Virus record (IMG/VR): IMGVR_UViG_3300047498_000083
Span: 1-24,857 of that record
DNA: 24,857 bases
Direction: 5' to 3' (one strand)
DNA from: a virus
Shown here: piece after piece, positions 423 through 20,000 of the stretch
How positions within the stretch are numbered: the stretch's first letter is position 1
How the letters are laid out: every line of letters begins with the position of its first letter
Notes under the pieces: model-generated
Told to the model about the DNA's origin: nothing
Seen by the model: the letters and a program-made list of their open reading frames with translations, nothing else
The model's database searches: none
Program-made: the position numbers and the translations under genes

Positions 423-857
423 GTGCACGCATATCATATAGACTCGCTCGCTCGCACCATCGTCGAGGTCACCTACCAGACGCTCGCCGATATGCAGGCC
501 TACGTCGGCGGCAGCATCGAGAGCGCGTGGCGCTGGCCGAACGGCGACACGCTGTACGTTGACGAGGACGGTTTGTCCAAGCCCGGCAAAGGTTTCTTCT
601 GGCTGGCCGATCGGACGGATCAGCCACTGGTGGGCAACGCCCTGGTGGTTGGTGCAGAGACGATGGACCGGCACGGCCACTACATTGACGCCCCGAGGCC
701 GGCGATGCCCTTAGAGTACCTGCACCGGTCGATCCGCTGGACCACGCGCGAGCAGGTCGACTCGTGGGCCAAGGCACACGCGAGCGAGCCAGCGATCACC
801 GTCGGCAGCGACGTCGTCACGCGCGTCGGCCGTCTGTTCGGCGGCATCCCACGATAA
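423..857 (+). CDS. DUF3846-like protein
   Basis: A 144-residue protein starting at a GTG 3 nt after the previous stop, with an AAGAGG ribosome site at 408-413 (9-nt spacer). Residues about 28-80 fit DUF3846: a YVGG..E segment, then an acidic GDTLYVDEDGL strand-turn and LVGNALVVGAE. These small proteins are common in phages and plasmids and have no settled function. The C-terminal 65 residues lie beyond the recognisable domain and resemble nothing I know. The context is a small early-type cluster with MazG. The stop is only 3 nt before the -35 box of the next promoter. Confidence 0.65.
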   Translation: MHAYHIDSLARTIVEVTYQTLADMQAYVGGSIESAWRWPNGDTLYVDEDGLSKPGKGFFWLADRTDQPLVGNALVVGAETMDRHGHYIDAPRPAMPLEYLHRSIRWTTREQVDSWAKAHASEPAITVGSDVVTRVGRLFGGIPR

Positions 858-1202: not shown

Positions 1203-1483
1203 GCGACGACCCAATCCTTACGGCACTGGCGCTGCTTGAGACCAAACTCGATACCCGGTTCAACACCCTCGAGGTCCGCATGGACCGTTTGGAGAAGAAC
1301 CAGTTCGCGTTGATGGACCGCTTCGACCGACTCCAGCGAGACAAAGATGATATGCGCGAGCAGATCGAGGTGCAACGTCAGACCACGCAGACCCTGTTGA
1401 CCACGTCAGACGCGCTCTACCGCCGCATCATGCGGCTCCAGACTGACGTGGACGACCTGCGGGACAAAGGCAAAGCGGCGTGA
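1199..1483 (+). CDS. coiled-coil protein
   Basis: 94 residues from the GTG at 1199 (4-nt GTGA overlap with the HTH gene; AGGAG ribosome site 7 nt upstream). Almost the whole length is charged heptad-like helix, rich in L, D, R, E and Q, such as LETKLDTRFNTLEVRMDRLEK and later RIMRLQTDVDDLRDKGK. There is no membrane segment, signal or cysteine. It may multimerise, possibly with the HTH protein made from the same transcript. It is not recognised as a known family. Confidence 0.6.
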   Translation: MSDDPILTALALLETKLDTRFNTLEVRMDRLEKNQFALMDRFDRLQRDKDDMREQIEVQRQTTQTLLTTSDALYRRIMRLQTDVDDLRDKGKAA

Positions 1484-1656
1484 TCGCGGTCTACCAAGCC
1501 TGTCGCTTGGCTTGTACCTGAATTATAGTGCGTTCACGAGTCGCCAAACTCGCGCTAAAACCAAAATTTTGCAGCATGTTTAGACGCCGAACGCTCTCGG
1601 CGACAAAGTGGTGACGCCTAGCCGTGGGCTGACGCGGAACAAGGTAAACTTGAGCG
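1484..1656. terminator. gap between convergent genes with two hairpins
   Basis: A 173-nt noncoding gap where plus-strand genes ending at 1483 meet minus-strand genes ending at 1657. It holds an inverted repeat CCAAGC-N5-GCTTGG at 1494-1510, just after the plus-strand stop, and CGCCGA-N6-TCGGCG at 1585-1602, suited to the minus transcript. Neither has a clear U-run, so rho-independent termination is only possible. The stretch is less GC-rich than its surroundings. Confidence 0.35.
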
Positions 1657-1929
1657 TCAATCCGGCATGGTAGGCAAACTGTTTGAAGACCGCAGCATGT
1701 CGCGCAACAATGTCTCGTCGGCCTCCGGGGCGAACGCGAGGCGCCACGCCGTCGACGCCCAGCCGGCCACCACCGCAACCACCACGACGCCGCGCGCCAG
1801 TGTGTATTTGGCGATGCCGGCATCGGCGATCCGCGTCACCACGGGCTGCGCGATGTGATCGATGGCCCACAGGTCAATGCGCACGAGCACTTGCGAGACG
1901 GCGTTGACCAAGCGCGCGACCGTTTTCAT
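1657..1929 (-). CDS. small single-span membrane protein
   Basis: 90 residues from the ATG at 1929, which overlaps the stop of the upstream gene (ATGA). Residues about 1-42 form an amphipathic helix-rich stretch; residues about 44-62 (ARGVVVVAVVAGWASTAW) are one hydrophobic transmembrane segment, followed by an acidic tail with EADETLLRDML. No signal-peptide cleavage site is apparent. It is the last gene of the minus-strand cluster of small genes. The family is not recognised, so only an inner-membrane location is inferred. Confidence 0.6.
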   Translation of the reverse strand: MKTVARLVNAVSQVLVRIDLWAIDHIAQPVVTRIADAGIAKYTLARGVVVVAVVAGWASTAWRLAFAPEADETLLRDMLRSSNSLPTMPD

Positions 1930-2441
1930 GCGCGCCCCGCCGCGTGGTCAATTGAGAACACCTTGACCTCGTCCATGCAGTGGCTACACACGAAGCGGCC
2001 GGGCGGCGAGCCCGGCGTGTCCAAATGCGTGATGTACCAGCGCGGATGATTGCATTCGCCGCAGGACAAGAACCCCTCGCCGGGCGGCGGTTGCAGCGTG
2101 CCGTCGGCAGTGCGTTTGACCTCGCGCGTGCGCGCCGCCATGCCGGAATGCTCGCCCACCGCGTCCGGCTGCTCATGGGCTTCGGGCTTGATCTCGCGTT
2201 CCTGCGTCTCGGCCTGTTCCAACGCCGTCGCCGCCGCGTAGAGCAAGCCGCCGATCTCGGACAGCCGGGTCTGTTGGCCGATGACATGGATCTCGCCGCC
2301 GCGCATCCGCGCCACCACCACGGCTTGCTCGATATGCCCGGAGCGGTAAAGATCGGCGTAGGTGTCGAACGCTTTTTTACGATTGGACAGAGTCCGCAGC
2401 CGAGTCTTGACCAGATCGTCCTTCGCCGATTGTTTCCCCAT
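1926..2441 (-). CDS. phage protein with C-terminal zinc ribbon
   Basis: 171 residues from the ATG at 2441, preceded by GAAAGGG; a TTG two codons upstream is less likely. Residues about 36-80 (VVVARMRGGEIHVIG ... SEIGGLLYAAATAL) match the strand-strand-helix layout of small phage accessory proteins that display a short sheet before a helix. Residues about 80-120 are charged linker. The C-terminus has CGEC and, about 22 residues later, CSHC, a likely zinc ribbon. The start overlaps the preceding zinc-ribbon gene by 65 nt. Function is unknown; nucleic-acid or protein binding is inferred from the zinc ribbon. Confidence 0.6.
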   Translation of the reverse strand: MGKQSAKDDLVKTRLRTLSNRKKAFDTYADLYRSGHIEQAVVVARMRGGEIHVIGQQTRLSEIGGLLYAAATALEQAETQEREIKPEAHEQPDAVGEHSGMAARTREVKRTADGTLQPPPGEGFLSCGECNHPRWYITHLDTPGSPPGRFVCSHCMDEVKVFSIDHAAGRA

Positions 2442-2577
2442 CGACAAAGCCCTTTCTCAATTCAGGATGGTCGAAATCCGCGAAAAACAGATGGCAGCGG
2501 ACGCAATACCGCTCTTGCACGTCCATCGGGTGGAACGAGCGCGCGCCGCAGTCAGGACAGCGGAACGGCTCGATCAT
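2377..2577 (-). CDS. small zinc-ribbon protein
   Basis: 66 residues from the ATG at 2577, with GGAG about 7 nt upstream. Residues 1-30 are a short zinc ribbon: FRCPDCGARSFHPMDVQERY then CVRC, two CxxC knuckles 18 residues apart. Tiny proteins of exactly this kind (CPxCG, a 'hP.DV.ERYC' middle, CxxC) are common in phages and bacteria and generally uncharacterised. The last 25 residues are acidic and probably disordered. It lies within the overlapping minus-strand cluster and overlaps the gene upstream by 26 nt. Confidence 0.7.
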   Translation of the reverse strand: MIEPFRCPDCGARSFHPMDVQERYCVRCHLFFADFDHPELRKGFVDGETIGEGRSGQDSAADSVQS

Positions 2578-3106
2578 GGTCGGCTCCGTTGGCGGCGCGC
2601 TTGGGCGCATGTTCGGCCATGACGTAGAGGTAAGCCAATCCGCGTTGACCGATGCCTTTGGCTTGGCCGACCACGACCAGATCACCGCGAGCGACCAGCG
2701 TTTTGACCGCGCCGTTGGCCTTGAGACGGGCGGGTCGGTCGGTCGGCGCAATGCCGAGTATGCCGCATATATCCGAAAACGACATCGGCTTCGGCTGCTG
2801 CATCGTCTTCGACGCCTCGCGCAGTCGCGTGCGGACGGACAGCGTGTATTCGCCGATCGTCACGCTGTCGTTGCCCTTCGGGTTGCGTGGCGGCATCCCC
2901 GACCAGCCCTTGGCGGCCTTGGGTGCCGGCAGCGAACGCGGCGCCGGCTTGGCCGCGACCTCGACGGCAGCCACCGCCCGTTCGGTCGGCAACCGGCCGG
3001 TGTACACGCCGACCACCGTGCCGTTGACCACCATCACACGCTGACCGGCCTCGGCGATGATATCGGTCGCGACCAGCAGCAACTCCGCCTCAATCGAGAT
3101 TTTCAC
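2552..3106 (-). CDS. possible winged-helix DNA-binding protein
   Basis: 184 residues from a GTG at 3106 that overlaps the upstream stop as GTGA; the frame stays open to 3235 but that extension has the composition of out-of-frame sequence. Residues 1-45 contain a short beta-rich start (AELLLVATDIIAEAGQRVMVVNG). Residues about 50-90 are a proline- and alanine-rich linker. Residues about 105-170 look like a wHTH: PMSFSDICGILGI, a helix with LKANGAVKTLVARGDLVVVG and a closing strand GLAYLYV, the helix-turn-helix-wing order. The gene upstream ends in a similar layout, so the two may be related regulators. The wHTH call is inference from the pattern. Confidence 0.5.
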   Translation of the reverse strand: MKISIEAELLLVATDIIAEAGQRVMVVNGTVVGVYTGRLPTERAVAAVEVAAKPAPRSLPAPKAAKGWSGMPPRNPKGNDSVTIGEYTLSVRTRLREASKTMQQPKPMSFSDICGILGIAPTDRPARLKANGAVKTLVARGDLVVVGQAKGIGQRGLAYLYVMAEHAPKRAANGADHDRAVPLS

Positions 3107-3441
3107 GACGCTTTGCCCCGCCGGTAGCCGAACTCGTCCGCTTGAGCCAGCGTACCCTTGCGGACCATGCCATGCAGCACCTCGCGCACTGCGACCCGTT
3201 TGGAATTGACCGTCAGATGCTGGTCGGTGGTCCACAAAGCGACCACGTCCATCACCGCGAACGGCTCGTTATTCGCGCGCGTTTCGTCCGCCGTCGATGA
3301 ACGTCTGCCCGTCAGGATGACGGGCTCGGTTTGGGGCGCCTGGTCGGGCGTCTCAGCAGCTTTGGCCCTGTCTGCGTAGCTCGCCAGCACATCTCCATTC
3401 ACGAAGCTGGTCTTAGAGGTGTAGGATTCTTCGGTCGTCAC
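3103..3441 (-). CDS. unknown protein, first gene of minus-strand cluster
   Basis: 112 residues if it starts at the GTG at 3441. That GTG has no ribosome site at normal spacing. The frame is open for 12 more codons upstream, to a TAG, and GGAGG lies 8 nt before an in-frame ATT at 3448-3450, so initiation at ATT (as in infC) is possible. Residues about 65-112 (AVMDVVALWTTDQHLTVNSK ... VLHGMVRKGTLAQ) resemble the tail half of a winged helix: helix, turn, helix, then a strand GYRRG. The first 60 residues are polar and probably flexible. The family is not recognised. It is followed by a GTGA overlap with the next gene. Confidence 0.5.
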   Translation of the reverse strand: MTTEESYTSKTSFVNGDVLASYADRAKAAETPDQAPQTEPVILTGRRSSTADETRANNEPFAVMDVVALWTTDQHLTVNSKRVAVREVLHGMVRKGTLAQADEFGYRRGKAS

Positions 3442-3499
3442 CGTGGCAATGCCGTAGGCCTCCGCCTTGCCGACCCGGTTGGACTACGGATGAATATCT

Positions 3500-3592
3500 A
3501 GCCGCCTGTCCGGCGGGATTAGTCTCACGTTTCGTGACCCCTCTAGGGGATGAACGTTCGTGTCGTTATTCTCAGCCGCCTGTCCGGCGGGA
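3500..3592. repeat. duplicated 19-bp hairpin element, 74 bp apart
   Basis: Identical copies of AGCCGCCTGTCCGGCGGGA at 3500-3518 and 3574-3592. Each contains CCGCC-TGTCC-GGCGG, a 5-bp-stem hairpin. The 74-bp offset is close to seven helical turns, so the copies would face the same side of the DNA. Confidence 0.75.
3525..3559. repeat. three adjacent palindromes
   Basis: TCACG-TTT-CGTGA at 3525-3537, directly followed by CCCC-TCTA-GGGG at 3538-3549, then the perfect 8-bp palindrome GAACGTTC at 3552-3559. They lie between the two copies of the 19-bp element. Confidence 0.65.
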
Positions 3593-3643
3593 AGTCTGCC
3601 GGCGAGCCCCGCTTATCCAGCGGTTGTTTCCCGGCACACACGT

Positions 3644-3672
3644 CTTCTAACCGGCTCATTAGCGCCTGTCAA
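3644..3672 (-). promoter_or_regulatory. sigma70-type promoter for minus-strand cluster
   Basis: On the minus strand, -35 TTGACA (plus 3667-3672), a 17-nt spacer and -10 TAGAAG (plus 3644-3649, 4 of 6). The layout matches the plus-strand promoter at 861-889. The spacer holds an imperfect dyad ACAGGC-N8-GCCGGT. Transcription would start near 3637. Confidence 0.55.
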
Positions 3673-3722
3673 TGACTATTTTGTGCTTGACGTTGCGACT
3701 CGGGCGCACCTGATCGAGTCGC

Positions 3723-3968
3723 ATGCACGGTGAGTGGAATCGCCTCAAGCACGCAGTACGCCGGGTAGCGTGGCAGTCCGCGCCCGCTGAGCAAACGTGG
3801 CTGGAAGACCTGCTGCTCGACCGCGGTGATCCCCGTCTCACTTGGGCTGAGGAAGGCCTGTTGGCCCGTGTGGCGGCGCTCCTGCGGACGGATGAGCCGT
3901 GGCCTAGCCACGGTCAGGTCGTGGCACTCCGCCTGATCGAGGACAAGCTACGCAGTATGTTGATGTAG
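3723..3968 (+). CDS. small unknown protein
   Basis: 81 residues from the ATG at 3723. Composition is protein-like: W-rich and charged at the N-terminus (EWNRLKHAVRRVAW), then LTWAEEGLLARVAALL and a helix VVALRLIEDKLRSML. This resembles small all-alpha phage proteins, but I cannot name the family. No good ribosome site or -10 box is visible upstream, and the gene is alone on its strand, divergent from the promoter at 3672. Two minus-strand frames here are arginine- and proline-rich shadows. Reality is likely but not certain. Confidence 0.5.
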   Translation: MHGEWNRLKHAVRRVAWQSAPAEQTWLEDLLLDRGDPRLTWAEEGLLARVAALLRTDEPWPSHGQVVALRLIEDKLRSMLM

Positions 3969-3978
3969 ATAAGGACTG

Positions 3979-4010
3979 CAAGTTTGCCCCTCTGAATCTA
4001 TGAACTTGCC
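3979..4010. terminator. candidate bidirectional terminator
   Basis: An inverted repeat GCAAGTT-N18-AACTTGC sits in the 56-nt gap between the plus gene ending at 3968 and the minus late operon ending at 4025. The arms are perfect, but the loop is long and there is no strong U-run, so this is a weak call based on position. Confidence 0.35.
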
Positions 4011-4024
4011 GGCCTTTTGGCTGT

Positions 4025-4243
4025 CTATGCCGTGGCTGGTGGTAGCTCTGCCGCTGCTTCGGCAAGGGACACCTGAGCGTCCAGCTTGTCACTCGCCGCC
4101 TGAAGCGCTTCGATGTCGGCGGCGGAGTAGGGTTCGCCGCTCAAGCCCTTCTGAATTATCGGCGACACCTCTGTGAGCGCCGGCACGATCACGCTGGCGG
4201 CGTTGAGAATCCCGATGATCAGCGGTACGACTGCTCCGGCCAT
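4025..4243 (-). CDS. small membrane protein of the lysis region
   Basis: 72 residues from the ATG at 4243, with AGGAG 9 nt upstream overlapping the stop of the gene before. Residues 1-24 (AGAVVPLIIGILNAASVIVPAL) form one hydrophobic segment; residues about 35-62 (SGEPYSAADIEALQAASDKLDAQV) are an amphipathic, acidic helix. This plan is common in short proteins next to phage holins. It is the last gene of the late operon. A role in lysis or holin control is inferred from position only. Confidence 0.55.
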   Translation of the reverse strand: MAGAVVPLIIGILNAASVIVPALTEVSPIIQKGLSGEPYSAADIEALQAASDKLDAQVSLAEAAAELPPATA

Positions 4244-4254
4244 GGCCCGTGCTC

Positions 4255-5061
4255 CTACAGGTTGATTCCGCCGGCTGTCAGCTCGACGACGAATAGCTGG
4301 ACGGCGGCCTGCGCGGCCGCGGCCTGGTCAGTCGCAGCACCCGCCAACGAGGCCGTGGCGAAGGCGTCTATGGCCTTCCGGGCTTGCAGGCGGTACGGCG
4401 AGACCTTGGCCACCAGACGGGCTTTGGCGGCCGTCTGGGGCGTCTCCTGAAGGTAGGCCAGCCACGCGCTGTCGGCGGTGTTGTAGGCGGCGTACAGGCG
4501 TCCTGCGGTCGTCTGCGATGGCGTCGTCACCACCACCGTCGTCGGGGGCGGCGCGGCGGCCGGCGTGGCGCAGGCGCTGAGGCCGAGGCCGGCGAGCCAG
4601 ACGATCAGGAGCACGGGCACGACGTCCTTCGCCGCTGGCACAGTGGCTGGCACGACCGCGTTCGAGACTGGGCCCGACTTGCTGAGTAAGCCGTCTTTGG
4701 CGCGCGAGAAAAAGCCCGTGACCGGGGTCGAGGTGATGCAGCGCATCCCGAGTGATACGGCAAACAGGACAATGCCGGTGATCGTGTTGACCGTCGTGTC
4801 GTCCCAGCCGAGACCGTAGCGCGTGCTGGCGTAGGTCAGGATCGTCACCAGCACCGTCACGTAAGGCGTGCGAGCGGCAACCAGCGACTTGCCGGCTAGA
4901 AACGCCGGGAGCGATGGCGCGATAGTGGCTAGGCTGGTGAGCAAAGCCGGCAGGTTGCGCGCGGCCGCAACGGCGATATCGACCTGCCCGGCCTGCGAAG
5001 ACACGGGCGCCGTCAACACGACGCCTTTGATTGGCGGCACGATGGGTGACGTGTCTGACAT
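4255..5061 (-). CDS. holin-like membrane protein with internal lipobox
   Basis: 268 residues from the ATG at 5061. Residues about 67-83 (YVTVLVTILTYASTRYGL) and 92-106 (NTITGIVLFAVSLGM) are two membrane spans joined by the acidic turn GWDDTT, a plan familiar from small phage holins. A third hydrophobic segment at about 147-163 ends in LSAC (Cys164), a good lipobox, followed by a proline-rich ATPAAAPPP stretch and an alanine-rich helical tail (about 190-262). The second half therefore looks like an outer-membrane lipoprotein of the o-spanin or entry-exclusion type joined to a holin. An internal GTG at 4618-4620 or 4612-4614 follows GAAGGA, so a separate shorter product is possible. The holin role is inferred; no endolysin is in the window. 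Confidence 0.5.
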   Translation of the reverse strand: MSDTSPIVPPIKGVVLTAPVSSQAGQVDIAVAAARNLPALLTSLATIAPSLPAFLAGKSLVAARTPYVTVLVTILTYASTRYGLGWDDTTVNTITGIVLFAVSLGMRCITSTPVTGFFSRAKDGLLSKSGPVSNAVVPATVPAAKDVVPVLLIVWLAGLGLSACATPAAAPPPTTVVVTTPSQTTAGRLYAAYNTADSAWLAYLQETPQTAAKARLVAKVSPYRLQARKAIDAFATASLAGAATDQAAAAQAAVQLFVVELTAGGINL

Positions 5062-5124
5062 AGGACTAATCCGGAAAATCCAAGATATACGCTCGTGTCA
5101 AGCGGGTAGCGATGCACGTCTCCG

Positions 5125-8700: not shown

Positions 8701-10781
8701 CTGCCGCCGCTGCCGGCTGGCCCTGTGGCTCCAGCCACGCCGGGCACGCCCTGTGGGCCTTGAGCACCGGCTGGCCCTGTGGCTCCGGTGGCACCCATCG
8801 GGCCCGTCGGGCCGGCAGGACCGACCGGGCCAACGTCACCCTTGGCGCCCGTCGCACCGGTCGCACCGGTCGCACCTGTGGCCCCCGCGACTCCGGGCGG
8901 CCCCTGTGCGCCGGTCGCACCGGTCGTGCCGCCACCGCTGCCGCTGCCCGTGGCTCCCGTCGCGCCCGTGGCTCCCGTCGCACCAGGCGGTCCCTGTGCG
9001 CCCGTGGCTCCTGTGTCGCCCTTGGCGCCGGTCGCGCCGGTCGCACCCGTTGTGCCGGGCGGACCTTGAGGACCGGTTGCGCCCGTGGCGCCCGTCGCGC
9101 CTGGCGTTCCGGGGACGCCTTGTGCCCCGGTCGGTCCAGCCGGCCCTGTGGGTCCTGTCGGTCCAGCAGGCCCGGTCGCACCCTGTGCGCCCGTGTCACC
9201 TTTTGGCCCGGCCGCACCACCAGTGCCGCCGCCGCCCGAGGCCGTGATCGTCGCGATCCCTGCCGACACAGCCACGGTCGTGCCGCTGCCAAAGTTGAGC
9301 TGCGTGACACCGGATTCGAGTGTGCCGTCTGCCGCAACCGTCAGCGATGATCCGCCGCCGGCAAACAAGGTCAGCGTCGTCCCCGACAAGGTGCCGGTAA
9401 GGCCGGTGCTGAAGTTAACCGTATCCACGGTCTCGGCGGTGCCATCCAACTGCACGGCAAGCGGGCTTCCAGCGGTCGTGCCGCCACCGCCACCGCCACC
9501 GCCACCTGTGATGGTCAGCACGGCGGCGCTGCTACCCGGTATCACGAGTGCAGCGGCTTTGTTCGCGGCTGTACCTGTGATGGTGACTGGAAACGAGCCG
9601 TAAACACTGAGGTGTTGCAGCATCCAGCCGCCACTGTAGTACGTGCGGGTCAACGATGGCGTGGCAGTTATCGCGCCTTCGTTCGCGATTATGACGAGCG
9701 ATGGCGGACCGGATGCAACGGCAACCGTGTAGGGATGTCCGCCGCCGAACTGCGAGCCGACGATTCCAGTCGACGCAGCACCGGAGACTTCGATCAACGC
9801 CCAGTGCGTCGATTCGTATGACCCCTGCGTGAACGTGACCGACGGCGGACCCGTGAACGCCGATGCAGGCCACATAATGGCCCCCTGCATCGGATCGCCA
9901 CTGACCGCGTCGCCGATGAGGTACGTGTAGCCGGCTGGCGAAACCCCCGACTGCATCTCGACTTGGCCGATCGCGATGATGATCGACCCTGGCTGCGCCG
10001 CCGCCGGCAGAGTGGCTGTCCCGACGTCGATGCCGTACACCGTCTGCACGATGGTCGGCTGAGCAGGTGGCTGATACAGCGTCGCCCCAACCACATCGAG
10101 CGCGGTGACGCCGGTCAGTGTCACCGTCCCCGCCGTGAGGCCGAGGCCGCCGATAACTGAGAGTGTCAGCAAATCCCCTGTCAGATTGGTGCTAATTCCC
10201 GAACCAATGGCGAGCGTGTTGACCGTCACAGGGTCGCCGGAGACGTTGAAATTGAGCGACGATCCACCGCCGGTACTGCCGCCGCTCGTATCGACCGACA
10301 ACGTCAGCACACCGCCGGCCAAAGCCGCGGTGATCCCGGTGCCGATGTTGAGCGTCGTGGCTGCTTCCACGACGCCGTTGGCCTCCAGCACAACCTGGAC
10401 ACTGGACGGCGGCACGGGCGCCCATGTGTCGTTCTGATAGATGTACTCGACGGGAACTGCGGTCGGCGAGGCAATGACCGTGGCTGTCCAACCCTGTTCG
10501 GGCGCATAAAACTTCCAGCTAGGCACACCGGTTTCGTCAAGCTGCCACGCGGTCAGCGCGTTCGCGTTGGCTGCCCATGCGCCGGTCGGCGCCGCGCCGA
10601 CGATGTAGCGATCACCGATGCCGGGCGAGACGGGCGGTGTGTTCAACGGCGGCACGCCGCTGACAAACATGACGACAGCGTCGAGCTGCCGCATGTTCTG
10701 GTTCATCGCGGCGCCCCAGCCGTCGTCGCCGGCTGCCCAACCGGATGCGAGGCCTAGATTTCCGCCAACCGTCTCAGTCAT
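5784..10781 (-). CDS. tail fibre with DUF2793 start and collagen-like repeats
   Basis: 1665 residues from the ATG at 10781 (ATGA overlap with the hub gene; a TTG four codons earlier is rejected). Residues about 1-125 match DUF2793: [14 protein letters not shown] and a [10 protein letters not shown] strand, the part that joins phage fibres to the tail tip. Residues 522-611 and 621-689 are Gly-X-Y triplets (30 and 23), a collagen-like triple helix rich in GAT and GPx. Four related beta domains lie at about 232-416, 719-900, 1012-1215 and 1252-1447; five short 'LNxGTG..TLxV' strands and poly-Gly linkers join them. Residues about 1470-1665 form a concanavalin-like end ([16 protein letters not shown]). 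It is most likely a homotrimeric receptor-binding fibre. No fibre chaperone gene follows. Confidence 0.85.
8715..9218 (-). repeat. collagen-like coding repeat
   Basis: Codes for the two Gly-X-Y blocks of the fibre, with an interruption SGGGTT between them. The DNA is a degenerate 9-nt repeat (GGN-GCN-ACN in the coding sense) with many near-identical 18-27-nt units such as those at 8850-8880 and 8940-8990. It is prone to length change by slippage or recombination. Confidence 0.85.
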
Positions 10782-13102
10782 GCGCTGCCCCAATTGCTGC
10801 CGTACTGCGAGCCCCAGCCAACATCGGCGAGCACAACACGGAAAGAGTAGAGTTGAAACGACGCCAGACCGTCGCGCGCTGCCTCCAGCTCAAGCGTCGC
10901 GCGTTTGGGCGCGCCGTCATCAAGCTGCATCGCAGCGGTATACACCCATGACGTGCTTGTGGTGGCGGCGGCCGTGCGCAACAAAGCGTGCGTTGTGGCG
11001 TCGTACACGCGGATGGTCACCGTCTGCCCGAGTTCGGGCGTTACGTCGGCCGATACATGACCGAACACGACGTCGGCTTGCGTCAGACGATTGCGGCGTG
11101 CCCAGGCGATTGTCTGATCGCCGACCACGGGATTGCGAGACGCACCGTACGGTAAACTGTTGACGGTCAGCAACCCAGGCGGGTACGGCATATTCTGTCG
11201 ACCGACCATCGTCACCGCAGCCACGGGGGCTTGGCCAATCGGTAGCTGTGCGCTTGACGTATTCGTCAGCGCGACACCGTTGATCGTCTCCCCGTTCACC
11301 CAGTCCGTCGGGTCGGCAAGCTGGTAGTCGTCGATCATGTAAAGCAGCGCGCCAGCGATGTGTAGCGCGGGCACAGTGTCGGTACAGCCACGGACGATGG
11401 TGGCTGTACCGGCATCCTCGTCGAGCGCCGTCACCCAGACGTATTCGGCGTCGATCAGGCCTGCGCCAGGCACAGTGGCTGACCTGCTGTTGCTGCCGAC
11501 GGAGACGGTCAGCGCCGTGTCGTAGAGGCCCAGTGGGCTCGTCACCGTGCAGACGCAACACCAGCCGCCTGTGCGGACGTCCTTGTACGCGGCGCCGGGC
11601 GCCTGCGTCCACAAGTCGTAGCCGGCGGACGTCGGATTGAACACAGGCCGCCCTGCCGCCAACACGTAAAACGCCGTCGTGGGCTGGACTTGAGCCAGAT
11701 TGGCAGCGGACAGGGTGTGTACCAGGTCACGCCAGTTCGCTTCGCGTGCCACCTGTTGTGTGGCAGGATTCGGCAGATTGTTTGGCCGCGACCACGTCGA
11801 TGGCTGTGGCTGTGTGAAGCCGCCGAGCGGCATGCCGAAGACGTCTTGGACGGCTTCGACTGTGATTTTACCTTCGCTTTTGGTGGCGATGCTGATCTTG
11901 CCCACGCGCAAAATCAGGTTGAACAGGCCGCGCGTCAGGTCGGTAATAGCGATCACGTCGCCCGGCGCGATCACGTACGCGCTGCGGTCGAGCTCCAGCG
12001 TGTACGCTTTGAGCCCGGCGCTCTTGGCTTGCAAATCGCGCGCAGCAACGCGGGCTGCCAGCGCGTTGGTCGGGAGGCCGGGGTAGTGCGTGGTCACCGA
12101 GATCCGTGCGCCGGTTGCCCTGATGGCCGCAATATTTTGCGCGCGGACCGTCAAGTCGTTGTCGAGCACCGGATCGTGCCAACTGACGATGATCTCGTTC
12201 GGCAGGTTGTTGGGACTGACGCTCGTGTCCTCAATCGACAGGAGGCCGTTGCCCGAGTTGAAGTTGATCACCTTGGTCGTGTCGTAGTCCTGCCGCAGCA
12301 GACGGAGACAAAACAGTCCGCTGGTCCGGTCGAGGTAGACGACCGCCCCGATGTGGTCGCAGACCTGCTGGATAAATTGTGCGACTGACGTCTCGGCTTG
12401 TTGGTATATCAGGCACAAACCGAAGCCTTCGAAGTACAGGGTATTCGCCGCAGCCGTGAACGACGTATCGTCGATCAACGCAGTATCCAGTCCAGATCCC
12501 CACAAAGGATTCGTTAAGCACTCGTAAATAATGTGGGCCGGGTTCATACTATTGATCGCCGGTGTGCCAGTATTAACACCACCCGGGTTCTCAGGCGTGA
12601 TAACATATCCGCCGGGGCTCGTTCCCGTCGTGTCGACGATGGCTCCAGCCACGTCGCTCATCAGCAGGATCATGGCCTGCCCGGGATTCCAGCAGTTATC
12701 GTTAAACCATCCTTTGGTGTAGCGCCTGACGCGGAACTTCCACTCCTTCGGATAGGGATTGTTACAACTGATTTCACCAGAGTAATACACCGTGGCTACG
12801 CCCCGCGACGCCCCGCATGTGCCGAGTTTGCCGGCAATGTAGCTACTCAGGACTTGAGTTGGCTTGCCCATCATCAGGGCAAACCAGCCGTTGATCCCAC
12901 CCTCTTTCTGGTCGCCGCCGAACAGGTTGGGCGCGTTGATCTGGACCCGTGCGGCGTCATCGGTCAAGTCGCCTTGCCAGCCGATCAAAGTCTTGTTCGC
13001 GTTGATCTGGCATAAATCGTCGATCGGACCCCGGCAGAGGCCCATCATGATGTCCATGTAGTAGCGATAGCCGCTGGTTCCTCCGCCCGATTTACCGCCC
13101 AT
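10778..13102 (-). CDS. tail tip hub protein (gpJ / GTA hub type)
   Basis: 774 residues from the ATG at 13102. The start ([26 protein letters not shown]) and the middle ([42 protein letters not shown], then [18 protein letters not shown] and [10 protein letters not shown]) follow the conserved order of the phage tail_3 / tip attachment family that includes the GTA hub and lambda gpJ. This protein forms the central hub at the distal end of the tube, binds the fibre and helps open the cell envelope. The last 350 residues contain a fibronectin-like strand pattern (residues about 665-760). It sits in the standard place, just before the fibre, and overlaps the small gene before it by 11 nt. Confidence 0.85.
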
Positions 13103-13298
13103 GCTTGGCCTCCGCTTCCGCGTGCACGATGGCGTGCTCTGCCAGAGCGTCGCCCGTGGCCCGCAACTGTGTGGCTGTTAAGCCGTGATCGACGAAATCT
13201 TGCCACGACAGCCCGTGCGATGCGAACCACTCGCGGGCGCCCCGCGAGCAGATGCCCGCCGTCCGTACGTGCTGCATCGTGACGAGCACGTCGGTCAT
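13092..13298 (-). CDS. small conserved tail-tip protein
   Basis: 68 residues from the ATG at 13298 (ATGA overlap with the previous gene), with GGAAGAA as ribosome site. The sequence TMQHVRTAGICSRGAREWFASHGLSW..F is a pattern I associate with small phage genes placed directly before the hub gene; a short helical C-terminus ([18 protein letters not shown]) follows. Function is unknown. The placement suggests a tip assembly or adaptor protein (inference). Confidence 0.65.
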   Translation of the reverse strand: MTDVLVTMQHVRTAGICSRGAREWFASHGLSWQDFVDHGLTATQLRATGDALAEHAIVHAEAEAKHGR

Positions 13299-13525
13299 TT
13301 CTTCCCGCCGCTCGACGAGATCGATTCCACCGACAGGTTGCCGTACCACAAGACCATCCAGGTGGGCAGCCAAACATCGCCGAAGATGACCGCTTGTGGC
13401 GTGCCGTCGCTGAACGTCGGAAATACGAACTGGCCAAGCGTGTCCGGTGGCGGCGGCTTCGGCGCCATCAGCGCGCCAAGAACCGCCGAGATCAACAGCA
13501 GTGCGATGGCGAATATGAACTGCAT
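13295..13525 (-). CDS. small tail-tip protein with N-terminal membrane segment
   Basis: 76 residues from the ATG at 13525, 1 nt after the BR0599 stop; a start 12 codons earlier would overlap that gene. Residues 2-20 (QFIFAIALLLISAVLGALM) are a membrane segment or signal anchor, followed by PKPPPP. The rest (GTPQAVIFGDVWLPTWMVLWYGNLSVE) contains the 'G.P..VIFG....W..LWYGNL' motif seen near the N-terminus of phage tip proteins. It sits where gene transfer agents and many phages encode an NlpC/P60 tail peptidase, but no Cys-His catalytic motif is present. Confidence 0.6.
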   Translation of the reverse strand: MQFIFAIALLLISAVLGALMAPKPPPPDTLGQFVFPTFSDGTPQAVIFGDVWLPTWMVLWYGNLSVESISSSGGKK

Positions 13526-13526
13526 G

Positions 13527-14351
13527 TCAGTACACCGCATCGCCGCTGAACGGGGAGACACCGGGAATCATCGGGAACCCTCCATAATTCGCGAGGTTAT
13601 TGAACGACGTGCAGGCGTCGGTATGGTGATAACAGCCACGGTAGGCAGTCACCTCCGTCCCGACGGTGATCTGGTCGGCTTGACCGAGCAGTGTGATGAG
13701 CCCGGATGGCAGCGAGTCCATGATCTGCCGCTGCTCCAGCGCGCCCGTCACCGGATCGGCGATGAAGCTGAGAAAACCGCCTTGGAAGTAGGACTGTGGA
13801 TGCCCAGCCCACGCGCTCGCGACGATTGTGTTGCCCGTGACAGCATAGACGGTCCCAATGGTGGCCCACAGCGACGGATCGGCGCGACAGGTGTGGGGGT
13901 CGTAAAGCGTGTACGGGCACGCGCGCTGCCAGCCGAGACGTATGCCAGGTGCCTGTAGCGCGTACGACAGTGTGTTGCAGGTCAATTCGGCGGTGCCTGG
14001 GTCGGTCCTCTTGACCGTCGTGACCGTACCGGCCCACGCGACCTGCACCTCCGGGTCTCCGTACTGGCCGCGGAACACCACAAGGTTAACGGGCGCGGAA
14101 GGCGCGGACCCGACGTACAGGCCACAAGGAGGCAGCGTGGCTGGCATGACAACCACGAGTGCATCGTCACTCGCTTCGACGGAGATCGTCACCCCTTTAT
14201 CGCTGATCGCAATCGGCAGATAGTCGTTACCGGCGTATGCGATCGTCCTGTCTGCGTCTGTGTAGTACCAGAATTGCCCAGAACGGTTGAACCGAAACAG
14301 GGAAACCGGTATCGCGCTGTACGCCGAGGTTTCGAGGCTCGCGAATGTCAC
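13527..14351 (-). CDS. BR0599/DUF2163 family tail-tip protein
   Basis: 274 residues from a GTG at 14351 with strong GGAGG 9 nt upstream and a GTGA overlap; the frame continues to 14675 but without coding character. The N-terminus (LETSAYSAIPVSLFRF then FWYYTDADRTIAYAGNDYLPIAI) and the C-terminal cysteine pattern (ACPYTLYDPHTC, then GCYHHTDAC..FNNLANYGGFPMIPGV) are diagnostic of the BR0599 family. In the Rhodobacter gene transfer agent the homologue forms part of the hub ring at the tail tip. The conserved cysteines may bind an iron-sulphur cluster or form disulphides. It is complete. Confidence 0.85.
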   Translation of the reverse strand: MTFASLETSAYSAIPVSLFRFNRSGQFWYYTDADRTIAYAGNDYLPIAISDKGVTISVEASDDALVVVMPATLPPCGLYVGSAPSAPVNLVVFRGQYGDPEVQVAWAGTVTTVKRTDPGTAELTCNTLSYALQAPGIRLGWQRACPYTLYDPHTCRADPSLWATIGTVYAVTGNTIVASAWAGHPQSYFQGGFLSFIADPVTGALEQRQIMDSLPSGLITLLGQADQITVGTEVTAYRGCYHHTDACTSFNNLANYGGFPMIPGVSPFSGDAVY

Positions 14352-15070: not shown

Positions 15071-17091
15071 GGCAGCACCACGTTGTAATCCGATTCGAGC
15101 CCTTCGATTGCGAGCAGGACCGGCGGCCCGATCACATCGTCGCAGAGGAACGCAGCATCGATCGGCGACGTGAAGTGGCTGCCGCCGATGCCGCGATTCA
15201 TCAGGAAGTCGTTGGCCACGCCGCCATCTCGCACGGTCAGCCACACAGCGGGCGACTGTCCGGTTGGCCCCGAACCGTCGATCAGGAGGTCGGTCGGCTG
15301 GCCGTCGGCCGTCGAGAACCTGCGCCGGTTCGGTGACCACGACAAGTCGAGGAACGTGTCGCCCACTGCGAAATACGCGTCTGCCTGGCAGCCCTGGTTG
15401 AGTTGCGCGAGAGGCACGCTCATCTGCATCAGTCCGAGATTGAGGGAAATAGGGTCAGTCCGTAGCGGCGCCATGGCCCCCATGTGTTCGTACGGCAGGT
15501 CATCGACGTAGAGCTGTACGACGCCTGTTGTGACATCGAGCGAGCCTAGCACGTGATGCCACGTGCCGGCGGTCCAGTTCGGCAGCGTCCACTTGACGAA
15601 CTGATTACCGCCGACAAAACCCGGCACGTTGACGCCGATGCCCCACTGCAAAATCGTGGATGCACTGCCGTTGCCGTTCGACGTCGAGAACATCACGCCG
15701 CCGTACGGCTGATCGTCGGCAGTGTCCATCAGCTCGCCCCAGTTCGCATACCACGGATCTAGCGGTTGCAGCCACAAACTGAACAACAGGCACGTGAAGG
15801 TCGCTGGCATGCTGACATTCTGCGGCGCATTCTGCGTGCCGGCGCGCAGCGACTTGATGCCGCGGACCGGGATGCCGGGAATGATGCCGCCACCGGTAAC
15901 CGGAAGCGCGTCTATGCACTCGCGGAACAGCACCGTGGCTGTTGTCAAACCGCTAATGTCCGTCTCATGCTTGACGGTGATCGTGTCGGCGGAGAGCCGG
16001 CAGTAGGACATAAACGATATGCGCATCACGTCGGATGGCTCGATGTCGACGCCGAGCGGTGCAAGCGAGAGCTCCTCGAGGGTGCCAGCCACGCCAGATT
16101 GGGTGATCCGGCGATAGATGCGCGTGCCGTCCCACAGTTCGATCCTGATGTCCTGCCGGCCGCGCACGGCGCTGCCGCCGCACAGCGTGTAGCCGCACAG
16201 CCCGACAGAGATATAAGTGTCGGTCGCACCCACGGGCAGAGCGAGTTCGAGGTCGTGGAAAAACGTCGGTACCCACAGCGGATTTGTCTGGCCGGCGAGA
16301 TAGTACATCTTGGAGCGCCAGCGTGCGTGCGCCTCACGCCCCGCCAGGAACCACGTCATCTGACGCAAATCGAAGCCGGCGCCGCCTGTATCCGTCATCG
16401 TCGGCAGGCCGAACGTGTTGTCGAGAATGTCGTCGAGCCGCTGGTAGGTGTGCGTCAGATTGTCGGCCGTGTTTGGCTCGTCGTCGAACACAGGCTGCTG
16501 GAGATAGATGTCCCACGTCAGCGCGGATTGCGGGTAGTCGTTGGCCTGCACCGTCAGCCACCGTAAGGTCGCCGTCAGCAGCGCTCCGGACGCCTTGTTG
16601 TTCGTCGGGTCAGTCTCCGAGCGACAGGTCAGCAAGGGCATGCAGCGCGTCCCTGCCGGCCACGTGGTCGCTGGTGGCTGGGTCAGCACGATGCTGGTGT
16701 TGTTCGCCGACAGCACCGTGCACACCTCGAAGGTGAACGGGTCGCTGTAGAGGATCAGCATGCCGCCTGCGGTGTATTCGGACCACGGCTGGATGTTGCT
16801 GATGGTCGTCCCGCTGAGTGCGTCCGTCAGCCGGAACATGTCGAACCAGACGGGCACATGGAAAAAGCTGTTGCCGCCGCCGAGAGACTTTAGCAGCAGG
16901 TCGTACAGCGTGCGGGCGTTGCCGCCGACAAGAACGTCGTATTCGAGATACCGGCGCGGTGAGATACGCATCCGGCGACGCTGTTCGGCCCCGCTGGGCG
17001 AACGAAGGATGACGGTCAACCACTCGAGGGTTTCCGTCATGCCGCTCTCGAAGTTCGGCGCAATCGACCATACAGGGAGGGTGTCGGTCAT
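15067..17091 (-). CDS. minor tail protein with duplicated N-terminal module and LamG-like end
   Basis: 674 residues from the ATG at 17091 (1-nt overlap, TGATG). Residues about 1-100 (WSIAPNFESGMTETLEWLTV, RRYLEYDVL, FFHVPVWFDMFRL) belong to a family of phage tip proteins encoded just before BR0599 genes, in the place of the GTA distal tail protein. The module seems repeated at about 245-370 (WFLAGREAHARWRSKMYYL, LWVPTFFHDLELAL). Residues about 415-640 form a LamG-like jelly roll with TWHHVLGSLDVTTGVVQLYVD. It should sit between tube and hub, with the lectin-like domain outward. The family name is uncertain. Confidence 0.65.
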   Translation of the reverse strand: MTDTLPVWSIAPNFESGMTETLEWLTVILRSPSGAEQRRRMRISPRRYLEYDVLVGGNARTLYDLLLKSLGGGNSFFHVPVWFDMFRLTDALSGTTISNIQPWSEYTAGGMLILYSDPFTFEVCTVLSANNTSIVLTQPPATTWPAGTRCMPLLTCRSETDPTNNKASGALLTATLRWLTVQANDYPQSALTWDIYLQQPVFDDEPNTADNLTHTYQRLDDILDNTFGLPTMTDTGGAGFDLRQMTWFLAGREAHARWRSKMYYLAGQTNPLWVPTFFHDLELALPVGATDTYISVGLCGYTLCGGSAVRGRQDIRIELWDGTRIYRRITQSGVAGTLEELSLAPLGVDIEPSDVMRISFMSYCRLSADTITVKHETDISGLTTATVLFRECIDALPVTGGGIIPGIPVRGIKSLRAGTQNAPQNVSMPATFTCLLFSLWLQPLDPWYANWGELMDTADDQPYGGVMFSTSNGNGSASTILQWGIGVNVPGFVGGNQFVKWTLPNWTAGTWHHVLGSLDVTTGVVQLYVDDLPYEHMGAMAPLRTDPISLNLGLMQMSVPLAQLNQGCQADAYFAVGDTFLDLSWSPNRRRFSTADGQPTDLLIDGSGPTGQSPAVWLTVRDGGVANDFLMNRGIGGSHFTSPIDAAFLCDDVIGPPVLLAIEGLESDYNVVLP

Positions 17092-20000
17092 CAGCGCTGC
17101 TTCGCTCCGACGAGGGTGCGGATCGTCGGCAGGTTGCTACGGATGTGGCTGAGGGTTACCTTCTCGCCTTCCGAGGACAGCATCGCATTGGGGATCTGGC
17201 TGGGGTCCATGACCAGCACGGATCGGATGTTCACGGGCGACGGCTGGGAGGCCGTCGAGCCGCCACGGTTGAGCACGTTGCGCGGATCGCTCTTCGAGAG
17301 AACCTGCTCGCCGCGCTGGAGGATCGCTGCCTGCTCGTCGCTCGACAAGCCGACGATGGTGCCGTCGTGGAAACGCGGCGCGTTGGCGAAATAGAGTGGT
17401 GAGATCGCGCGGCTGGCGCCGCCGGACTGTCCGACGATGCCACCCTCGTGGAACAGTGCGCTCAGCCACGACCATGCACCGCTGAGGAATCCCGGTGCCG
17501 AGGCAGCGATGCCGCCACCGCCTGCCGTGCCGGGCGATGTGGCACTGTTGAAGGCAGACTCTAGCTGCTTCTCTAGGATCGTCTTGGCGAGATTCTCCAG
17601 CAGAGAACTGAAGAAGTGCAGCATCGACGCCTCGATGTTGCGGAACGCCGTGCCCCATTTCTCCGTGCCGTCGATCGCCGAACCCAGGTCGGTGGCGATG
17701 GTCGAGAATGTGGCTGATACCTCCGTCGCAAACTGCTTGCCGATGCTGGAGCGAAGTTTGGCGAGCTCCGGGTTGATCTCGGTCGCTTCGCCTCGCAGCT
17801 TGGCCAACTGCGCGGTGACGAGGCTAAGCTGGGCCGGCGTCAAATCCTTCTGCGTCGCAATCAGGGCCTGCATCGAATCGATGAGCGCGAGCAGCGGCGC
17901 GCGGGCAGCGGTGTAAGCTGCCGTGATCCGTTTGGCCGCTTCTTCGCTCGTGACCGTACCGCTCTCCTGGAGATCCTTCCAAGCGGCAGCAAGGTCGTTT
18001 CTCTCCTTGAGCATGTTGTCGATGCGCTGGAGGCCGGCTTGATCGAGCGTATTCGCCTCGGTGCCGAGTGCGCCGCCGGGAGCGGCAGCCGTCTGTGCAG
18101 CGCGCGCTCTAGCCACGAAAGCATCCGCCGTAGGCCCGGGCTGCGTCTTTTGCAAGGTCAAGCCAAACGCGAGCGCCTTATCCGCGTTGTCCTTCAGGCT
18201 GGCGCCGAGCGCGGTCGAGATAGACAGGACTTTCTCGTAGCCTTCTGCCGCCGTGATCGTGCCGGCTGCAACGGCGTCATTGAGTTCCTTGAACTGCGTG
18301 GTGCGGTCGGCTTCGAGCGTCTTCAGTTCGTTATCGTAATACTTACGCGTGGCCTCGAGTTTGAGGATTTGCTCGTTGGCAGCCACATCTGCTTCGAATG
18401 ATGCGAACGATGTTGCCTTCAGGCCGGCGGCCGTACCACCGTCTTTTTTGTACTGCGCAAGCCGTTCGGCGAGCTGTGCGTAGTGGTCGTCGATTGCCTT
18501 AAGCTGGGCCTCCAAACTATCTTTTTCGGATTTCTCGGCGGCCGACCGTAGTTGGTCGTCAGCAGTGACAAGAGACTGCCCTGCCCCGCGATTCTCCTGG
18601 GCGAGACGTGCCTTCTCACGCGCAGCGGCGATTGCACCGAGCGTATTGAGTTGGTCCGTGTCGTTGACACCGGCCTTCTCAGCGTCCTGTTTTGCTTTGC
18701 GTCGGGCGTCCTCAATCTTTTCATTGTCATTTTGATGCCGGACTTGGTTGGCCAGTTCCTTCTGAATCGCCACCTGGTCCAAGAAAGCCTTGTTCGACCT
18801 CGTGGTTGCGGCCGTCAGGTTGTTCTGCGACTGTGCCGCGCCGTCCTCCCGGTTGAAGCCCTTCCCCGGCTCGACAGCATCGCGAACCCCCGCCATCGCA
18901 ATATTCAGGCGGGATTTGGCCTCAGCAATTTTAGCGTCGTATTCCGCGAGTGCTTTGTCGAAAGCCTTTGGCAGCAGGCCGGATTTCTCCCAGCCCTGGT
19001 CAACCAGGTTCTGGCGGGATTCAATCAGACCTTGCATTTGGGACGAAGTATTAGAAGCGGTCGTGGCATCGAGGAATTTGTTCTTCACCCCGTCCAGCTT
19101 GTCGATTATGGCCGTCGCGCCAATAAGGAAGGAATTCACAGCACCGGAGTTGGCAATCGCGTCAAGGAAATGGCCGACAGCAGTGGTCGCATGCTGGAAG
19201 GCTACCGTCAGTGGTCCTTCGGCAATGTCGGCGCCCTTCTTTACCTGCGAATTGAAAGCGTCGAAAGCAATGCCTTGCGCCTTCATCGCATCTCCGTGGT
19301 CGAACGCGTCCTTTATTGCTTTCCGAGTGGCGACGCTGAGGAAGTTATACTCATCATCCAGCCGCTTGACCGCATCGTAATCGTGCCGGAATGCGTCCGA
19401 CACTTTAGCCGCAGCCTCCGGCAGGGCGATCCCGAATGTCTTGCTGAGGTTGAGCGCGGCCTCCCCGAACTTCGCCAAATCGGCCTGCCCGATCCCCGCC
19501 CGAATGAACGTTTGCAAGGCCTTACCGGCCTCGCCGAAGTTGGCGCCAAGGTCCTGCATATGCCGCTGCAACGCGACAACTGACTTGCCCGAGTACGCCA
19601 TTCCGTCGACAGAAACGGCCAACTGCGCGTTAAGCTCGCGGATCGCCGTGCTTGTGGCCGCCATGCGGATCAGTGCGGCGGCAACCGTGCCGATGACGAC
19701 AGCAGCCGGCAACAGGTAAGGGATGAGCTTGATGACTTTGGATATGCGGATATTGAAGTCTTCAAGTACGTAGCCGCCTTCGTATAGCACAGTCGTGAAG
19801 ACGGATTGTCCAGCCACTAGGCCAGTCATCGCCCGGTTTAACTGGTCAAACAAATCCTTGGCTTGATACACTTGGAGGCCAAGAACCGACATGCCGGACT
19901 GGCTGCCCTTGCCGGTACTTGGGGCACCGTGGCCACCGCCGGCCGTAGCGCCTTCCTTCTCCGCAGCGGCGATACGCGCAACCCGCGCCTTTTCTTCGGC

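Follow-up and report, generated by a model that had tools for sequence, protein, structure and literature searches.

RNA inhibitors of CRISPR immunity (Racrs) are already known, and the best comparison for the locus reported here is RacrIF1. According to the available text of PMC10651486, RacrIF1 is a solitary type I-F repeat located in a prophage, which binds Cas6f and Cas7f and blocks immunity. It is processed by Cas6f and supports a Cas7f filament; without the handle, Cas5f and Cas8f are not recruited. The same text describes RacrIC1 and AcrIC5 as encoded on one transcript. In the survey presented there, 90% identity to a known repeat was required, full matches at most 100 bp apart were set aside as arrays, and candidates were dropped if a partial copy lay in their 100-bp flanks. 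Hosts of most surveyed units carry a CRISPR system of the matching subtype. The locus described below carries two copies 74 bp apart and would therefore be excluded by this 100-bp filter, as far as the available text sets it out, which leaves a blind spot. Among the matches listed from the open-licence literature, as far as their available text goes, no paper reports multi-copy Racr units.

The stretch of DNA that we analysed (the window) is a complete IMG/VR virus record of 24,857 bases, which may be a fragment. Minus-strand ORFs extend from 24.8 kb to about 4 kb. The ORF at 17091–20879 resembles tape-measure proteins, and the best likeness of the ORF at 10778–13102 is a tail protein of BcepNazgul (39%). 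A second minus-strand operon is presumed to start at 3441 and to comprise ORFs of 112, 184, 173 and 90 aa. The first of them lies at 3103–3441 and has a GTG start, the second at 2552–3106 with its GTG overlapping the stop codon of the first, and the 173-aa ORF at 1926–2447; another possible ORF of this operon is located at 2377–2751. The preliminary description had noted a minus-strand promoter followed by a long leader. We could confirm a minus-strand leader of ~196 nt, which is probably not coding: all 120-base windows in 3440–3799 were negative in six frames when scored with the phage's own codon usage. For the promoter, which in Racrs is expected within 250 bp upstream, the picture is divided. 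A sigma-70-like site TTGACA-N17-TAGAAG can be read by eye on the minus strand at 3644–3672, about 50 bp upstream of hairpin B (see below) and with a start expected near 3637, but a stricter consensus scan of 2400–5100 reported none.

Two identical 19-bp elements had been noted in this leader, with three palindromes between them. The elements, AGCCGCCTGTCCGGCGGGA, are located at 3500–3518 and 3574–3592 (74 bp from start to start) and form the sole direct-repeat family reported in 3200–4000; the palindromes lie at 3525–3537, 3538–3549 and 3552–3559. At 19, the longest exact repeat over a distance of up to 200 bp exceeded the 15 reached in 100 order-2 Markov windows of equal length, and other repeats of 19 within 200 bp were found only at 8713–8714/8767–8768, inside a tail-fibre ORF.

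In transcript sense (minus strand) the repeat is a 5-bp hairpin, CCGCC-GGACA-GGCGG, followed by CU. The upstream copy (B, 3568–3595) has its hairpin at 3576–3590 and a handle-like CUGAGAAU at 3568–3575; the downstream copy (C, 3494–3521) has its hairpin at 3502–3516, followed by CUAGAUAU, a degenerate handle. The 46-nt stretch between them (3522–3567), in the position of a spacer, holds all three palindromes. In addition we noticed a hairpin that had been missed before, CCGCU-GGAUA-AGCGG at 3609–3623 on the minus strand (A), 33 bp upstream of B. It differs from B and C by a compensated change of the closing pair from C-G to U-A and by a loop C to U, it has no handle, and it may be a degenerate third copy. 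By eye, copies of another viral unit described below (L110) show this swap of the closing pair as well. All three 5-bp/5-nt hairpins of the leader carry GNRNA loops on the minus strand; counting both strands, the entire record has only five hairpins of this kind, these three included. Among 20,000 dinucleotide shuffles none had three GNRNA hairpins and only one had two.

CCGCC-GGACA-GGCGG-CU is the core of type I-F (Cas6f/Csy4) CRISPR repeats. Rfam family RF01317 (CRISPR-DR4) aligned end to end with copy B at 21.1 bits (gathering score 35, E = 0.031) when the 286-bp leader was searched alone with permissive settings, and copy C scored 16.9 bits; at the gathering threshold Rfam returned nothing. 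When all families were searched over 57 kb (the window and two other records), the same match had an E-value of 6.1, which is no better than chance, so independent testing was needed. Since the I-F reading arose only after the Rfam match, every test that follows is post hoc.

To collect natural I-F repeats, we searched 398 genomes with the Rfam family; 43 gave a match, 38 of them over the cut-off. We built a covariance model, R2, from 12 of these repeats, 10 of which are distinct; they had come to light through Rfam, independently of the window. It found copy B at 3569–3594 with 22.0 bits (E = 3.6e-4) and copy C with 16.9 bits (E = 0.011), the latter covering the hairpin and CU only. The next match in the window reached 9.9 bits and the best in 408,407 bases of other phages 12.7 bits. 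A broader model of 35 repeats, R1, excluded the window and, unlike R2, took in units that had been found by a pattern modelled on I-F repeats and the window. With R1 copy B scored 28.4 bits (E = 1.8e-6) and copy C 21.6 bits (E = 2e-4), compared with 10.3 bits for the next best in the window and 16.3 bits for the best control. The E-values of both models are rough, coming from a short calibration, and filters were off for the window searches and at default for the control searches. The control set consisted of 19 stretches with 200-base overlaps, drawn from eight of the nine viral records related to the phage, from lambda and from 50,000 bases of BcepNazgul; left out were the ninth record (G003, whose match looked like that of G004) and the ends of G006 and G007. 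Hairpin A was reported by neither model at E-values up to 5. The preliminary description had suggested searching the rest of the genome for the element; elsewhere in the record an 18-nt core of it is absent at up to two mismatches. A copy with three mismatches at 829–846 (plus strand), near the end of the ORF at 423–857, has a broken stem on the minus strand, scores 10.0 bits with R1 and is probably due to chance.

Stem and loop of the leader hairpins both occur in natural arrays: the stem CCGCC/GGCGG in arrays with CCGCCGCACAGGCGGCTTAGA in 3 of the 398 genomes and the loop GGACA in an array of one genome (G361). By eye, copy B is one base off natural repeats in the 15-nt hairpin and further off in the flanks. 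None of the 1396 5-bp/5-nt hairpins of the control phages (43 with GNRNA loops) fits CYGCC-GNAYA-GGCRG, the pattern to which both window copies conform. The handle of B agrees with the natural CUUAGAAA at 6 of 7 fixed positions, for which the chance is about 0.0013 at equal base frequencies. Copy C has a degenerate handle, and GUUCA is not matched in the 5' flanks. In the R1 alignment one stem pair is either U-A or C-G, with both sides changed in 10 of 35 rows; as the other pairs hardly vary, support from covariation is limited to this pair. A search of genomes with a 16-nt core and one mismatch was discarded, matching 251 of 295 genomes, mostly GC-rich background, with a reversed control of the same order. 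Taken together, the copies in the leader are very probably I-F-like repeats. They share with RF01317 the stem CYGCC/GGCRG, the GNAYA loop, the following CU and a partial NAGAA handle. In contrast to repeats of a type I-F array, which are separated by unique spacers and lie with or near cas genes, they are spaced by 74 and not 60–61 bp, their flanks are degenerate, their score lies below the threshold, they form no array and no Cas6f gene is found in the record. Of the options raised in the preliminary description a small structured RNA is the one best supported; its kind, a mimic of I-F repeats, had not been named.

We consider it rather likely that the leader acts as an RNA anti-CRISPR, a Racr-like decoy consisting of several I-F repeat mimics. 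Like RacrIF1 and other solitary units, as the available text of PMC10651486 portrays them, it would be a noncoding phage RNA with an I-F hairpin just past a promoter and no cas genes, and in both the core hairpin is kept while the 5' handle may diverge. Racrs are marked by a hairpin like the repeat of a known CRISPR subtype, located in noncoding DNA of a mobile element, and such hairpins are found here; the window differs from RacrIF1 in having two copies 74 bp apart in the leader of an operon instead of one solitary copy. With the second copy lying within 100 bp, we file this irregular and diverged two-copy unit as a variant and not as a solitary repeat unit. The putative promoter at 3672–3644 would give rise to a structured RNA ahead of the operon, with two good copies (B and C) and perhaps a decayed copy (A) of the Cas6f-binding hairpin. 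By analogy with RacrIF1, Cas6f (Csy4) of the host would bind two or three of these hairpins, perhaps cleaving each at its 3' end. Cas6f and Cas7f would then be sequestered on RNAs unable to guide interference. If both B and C were cut, the piece set free would resemble a crRNA but have a degenerate 5' handle and a self-paired "spacer" of 46 nt instead of 32.

In RNA folding predictions the leader does not stand out by its overall energy (z = -1.41). The 46-nt stretch between B and C self-pairs with -11.8 kcal/mol on its own. Hairpin A is predicted to form with a probability of 0.99 at every RNA length tried. Folding the full leader displaces hairpin B (probability about 0.1), and C stays at about 0.95. 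Hairpin B is predicted at about 0.9 in RNAs ending at 3530–3570, B and C both fall to about 0.2 in an RNA ending at 3500, and B is at 0.0 in one ending at 3460. The isolated B–C stretch folds with B paired to C, which, like the displacement of B, speaks against the decoy reading. Forcing all three hairpins costs 2.3 kcal/mol.

We scanned viral contigs for two I-F cores, with the gap chosen to admit start-to-start spacings of 61 to 91 bp, and obtained 22 stretches. Twelve showed spacings of 60–61 bp with a few gaps; two of these came from one contig and one (L124) had two repeats only. The other ten were irregular and left eight distinct units (L105, L109, L110, L114, L116, L118, L119 and L125) with spacings of 23 to 185 bp. 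L111 has the same sequence as L109 and was not counted separately, and L114, found through a 61-bp pair, was counted as irregular since its third copy lies 47 bp away. L113 was rejected as an irregular unit, since both of its copies lack handles and larger repeats form its flanks. R1 matches all nine records, i.e. the eight units and the window; since the eight supplied rows of R1 they match by construction, and only the window is a test. A Cas6f gene was found in none of these nine records. One IMG/VR viral contig of 47,886 bases carries 49 I-F repeat cores at 60–61 bp spacing (L104, 10301–13307), which are either a phage-borne array or host contamination.

Bacterial genomes contain similar units as well. 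In the order of one such genome (G288) the I-F pair was found in 3 of 390 genomes, including G288 itself, which was the search centre and already known; a reversed-pattern control gave 0. The order is probably Rhodobacterales, as a Rhodobacteraceae genome (G011, L018) appears in the list. The unit of G288 adjoins a relaxase gene and a DUF927 gene. Cas6f was detected in none of the three genomes with similar units and in both array-bearing genomes. I-F repeats occurred in only 1 of 292 genomes of this order, and that one was the irregular unit itself. In these genomes without Cas6f, and in an order nearly devoid of I-F repeats, such units, if they are decoys, must therefore serve in other hosts. 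For the three bacterial genomes the missing Cas6f is a real weakness of the decoy reading. I-F repeat-like units with two and with four copies were seen in bacterial genomes that lack Cas6f, at L066 9771–9871, beside a relaxase gene and a DUF927 gene, and at L129 5940–6240, beside ORFs without clear family. A different arrangement was seen in genome G479 (L100, L130 6020–6400), a tandem repeat of about 157 bp with CCGCCGCATAGGCGGCTGAGAAG-type hairpins near an ORF that by eye is FGGY-kinase-like. It is not reported by Rfam, may be another structured RNA unrelated to the I-F units, and was kept apart from them.

Like the window, the irregular units (the eight viral ones and those of G288 and G537) contain at least two I-F hairpins at irregular spacing. 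By eye, the last copy lacks a full handle in 8 of these 10 units, with no handle in six and a partial one in two. Other units are better preserved than that of the window: in 4 of 6 loci scanned (L105, L109, L118 and L125, not L099 and L100) a copy scores above the Rfam gathering score, and in several phage units the I-F repeat is matched from end to end. By eye, the last copy in L110, L118, L125 and G537 is followed by a hairpin and T run resembling a terminator, whereas the unit of the window runs into the operon. The units occur in phages, with acrIF8-aca2 as neighbour in one case, and in at least one mobilizable-type element. They could form an uncatalogued class of multi-copy RNA anti-CRISPRs with two to six I-F hairpins at irregular spacing on one transcript, a proposal that we regard as evenly balanced. 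Such a transcript would tie up several Cas6f molecules simultaneously, and the crRNA-like fragments arising from it would have structured "spacers" of the wrong size. If this holds, RNA decoys against CRISPR also exist as multi-hairpin transcripts, and a catalogue demanding solitary copies misses them. Genes behind such leaders would then be candidate anti-defence genes, which would provide a handle on nameless phage operons.

The strongest context evidence for an anti-CRISPR role comes from L125. At 12790–13611 (minus) this locus carries on one strand acrIF8, aca2, three I-F hairpins 42 bp apart and a terminator-like hairpin (by eye). Its AcrIF8 gene matches PF25699 (E = 6.5e-25) and PDB chain 6vqw_A (E = 6e-22); the gene of the Aca2 family matches PF08965 (E = 2.2e-19), with NCBIfam matches only below the cut-offs. 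This stretch offers a natural test, with protein and RNA inhibitors of one CRISPR subtype adjoining each other. In the flanking ORFs of the other units, few of which were scanned per unit, no Acr match was obtained. An acrIF8-aca2 operon is also present in phage ZF40 according to the available text of PMC8434428, in which the term "CRISPR repeat" is absent. In the genome of this well-studied Pectobacterium phage (NC_019522) we found a single I-F-like hairpin, CTGCCGCACAGGCAG (L131 3359–3386, 22.4 bits), about 180 bp past the gene that from its position was taken to be aca2 and before the integrase gene. It is flanked by CCCTCT...AGAGGG, which could extend the stem.

Before the Rfam match our leading idea had been that the hairpins are boxB-like elements of an N-type antitermination (nut) site, at which an arginine-rich phage protein would bind the GNRNA pentaloops and cause read-through into the operon. 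The lambda nut site likewise presents a 5-bp stem with a GNRNA pentaloop in an early leader, our hairpin scan recovered both lambda boxB sites (among six matches), and the enrichment of GNRNA loops in the leader as well as its position between promoter and operon fit. GNRA-like pentaloops are found in boxB–N complexes (available text of PMC12550061), to which the leader conforms by sequence pattern only, and phages with three nut sites exist (available text of PMC11893012). However, each lambda nut site contains a single boxB, and among the ORFs of at least 20 aa overlapping 1400–4100 of this record, which may be a fragment, none was convincing by eye as an N-like gene; short arginine-rich frames such as 3572–3637 and 2682–2768 (minus) are expected in GC-rich DNA. 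The motif of boxA is CGCTCTTTA, and nothing like it was seen by eye in the leader. Moreover, a boxB requires neither a handle-like tail nor the exact CYGCC-GNAYA-GGCRG core, and full-length matches to the I-F repeat in several of the irregular units argue against it too. We therefore regard antitermination as unlikely.

A DNA operator appears slightly more unlikely. Here a dimeric repressor, perhaps encoded by the operon, would bind the two dyads 74 bp apart and loop the leader. Half-sites CCGCC/GGCGG lie 10 bp apart, by eye 6 of the 7 pairs of the dyad are symmetric, the spacing amounts to about seven turns and the elements are located just downstream of the promoter-like site. Yet all copies have one orientation and an asymmetric centre, GGAYA, the third hairpin alters a stem pair on both sides along with one loop base, and the resemblance to I-F repeats runs past the dyad into the handle of B. 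The preliminary description had stressed that 74 bp puts both elements on the same helical face. The similar units have spacings of 23 to 185 bp that follow no helical phase, and the spacing in the window is probably incidental in this respect.

More doubtful than an operator is a relic or mini CRISPR array, taken up by the phage with a spacer against a competitor and since decayed. The copies are repeat-like and one has a handle, the viral contig L124 holds a two-repeat unit at 61-bp spacing, and mini-arrays of phages against rivals are known (review PMC11656645, available text). Against this stand the spacing of 74 instead of 60–61 bp and the self-paired "spacer". By blastn of 3100–4250 against named phages we obtained one 23-base match only, outside the leader, and plasmids gave only weak edge matches (E = 0.8). 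Cas6f, the only cas gene searched, is missing from the record.

Regulators of the CsrA/RsmA type recognize the consensus A(N)GGA, with GGA in hairpin loops. The leader is very improbable as a target of such a translational regulator. All three loops start with GGA on the transcript strand, but this GGA is preceded by C or U, and A(N)GGA is not matched. Readings as a replication site with iterons or as a partition site were rejected in view of only two good copies and a G+C content of the leader of 0.60–0.61.

The genes behind the leader also count against the decoy reading. The ORFs of the presumed operon were compared with Pfam, NCBIfam and PHROGs, the 90-aa ORF with NCBIfam only and the ORF at 2377–2751 being left out. 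The single match was a marginal one to a PHROG (E = 0.075), obtained with a longer, 227-aa form of the second ORF, and none of the scanned ORFs matched an Acr or Aca family. A structure prediction for the 112-aa protein reached a mean pLDDT of 40.9 and was useless. No homologue was detected for the 112-, 184/227- and 173-aa ORFs in viral contigs, and for the first two none in named phages either. Close relatives, whose lack of the element or of compensatory changes the preliminary description had named as a refutation, were not obtained with these three proteins.

The tail gene of the phage has relatives at 30–44% identity. The eight viral records of the control set, which are distant tail-gene relatives, and BcepNazgul contained nothing above the control best with R1. 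The element core with one mismatch was found in 1 of the 9 relative records (G005), once and with a stem-breaking change, and when the window's own element was used to search viral contigs, for a double or for a single copy, nothing was returned. Repeated hairpins in G001 and G005 were dismissed as coding or as a tandem repeat; further pairs of repeated hairpins were listed in the window at 9024/9087 and in G006 and G007. In the window, Rfam also reported Ms_AS-1 at 15861–15955 (plus strand; 32.4 bits, gathering score 37, E = 0.017), which lies inside a long minus-strand ORF and is probably spurious. Upstream of the leader an 81-aa ORF (3723–3968, plus strand) is oriented divergently from the operon; a minus-strand frame over the same stretch scores alike in codon usage, and we are unsure of both its reality and its direction. 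Finally, a distant relative of the phage (L026, 18540–19040) carries GC-rich 28-bp tandem repeats together with CCCCCTCTGTAG repeats between genes, which are possibly a replication or partition site.
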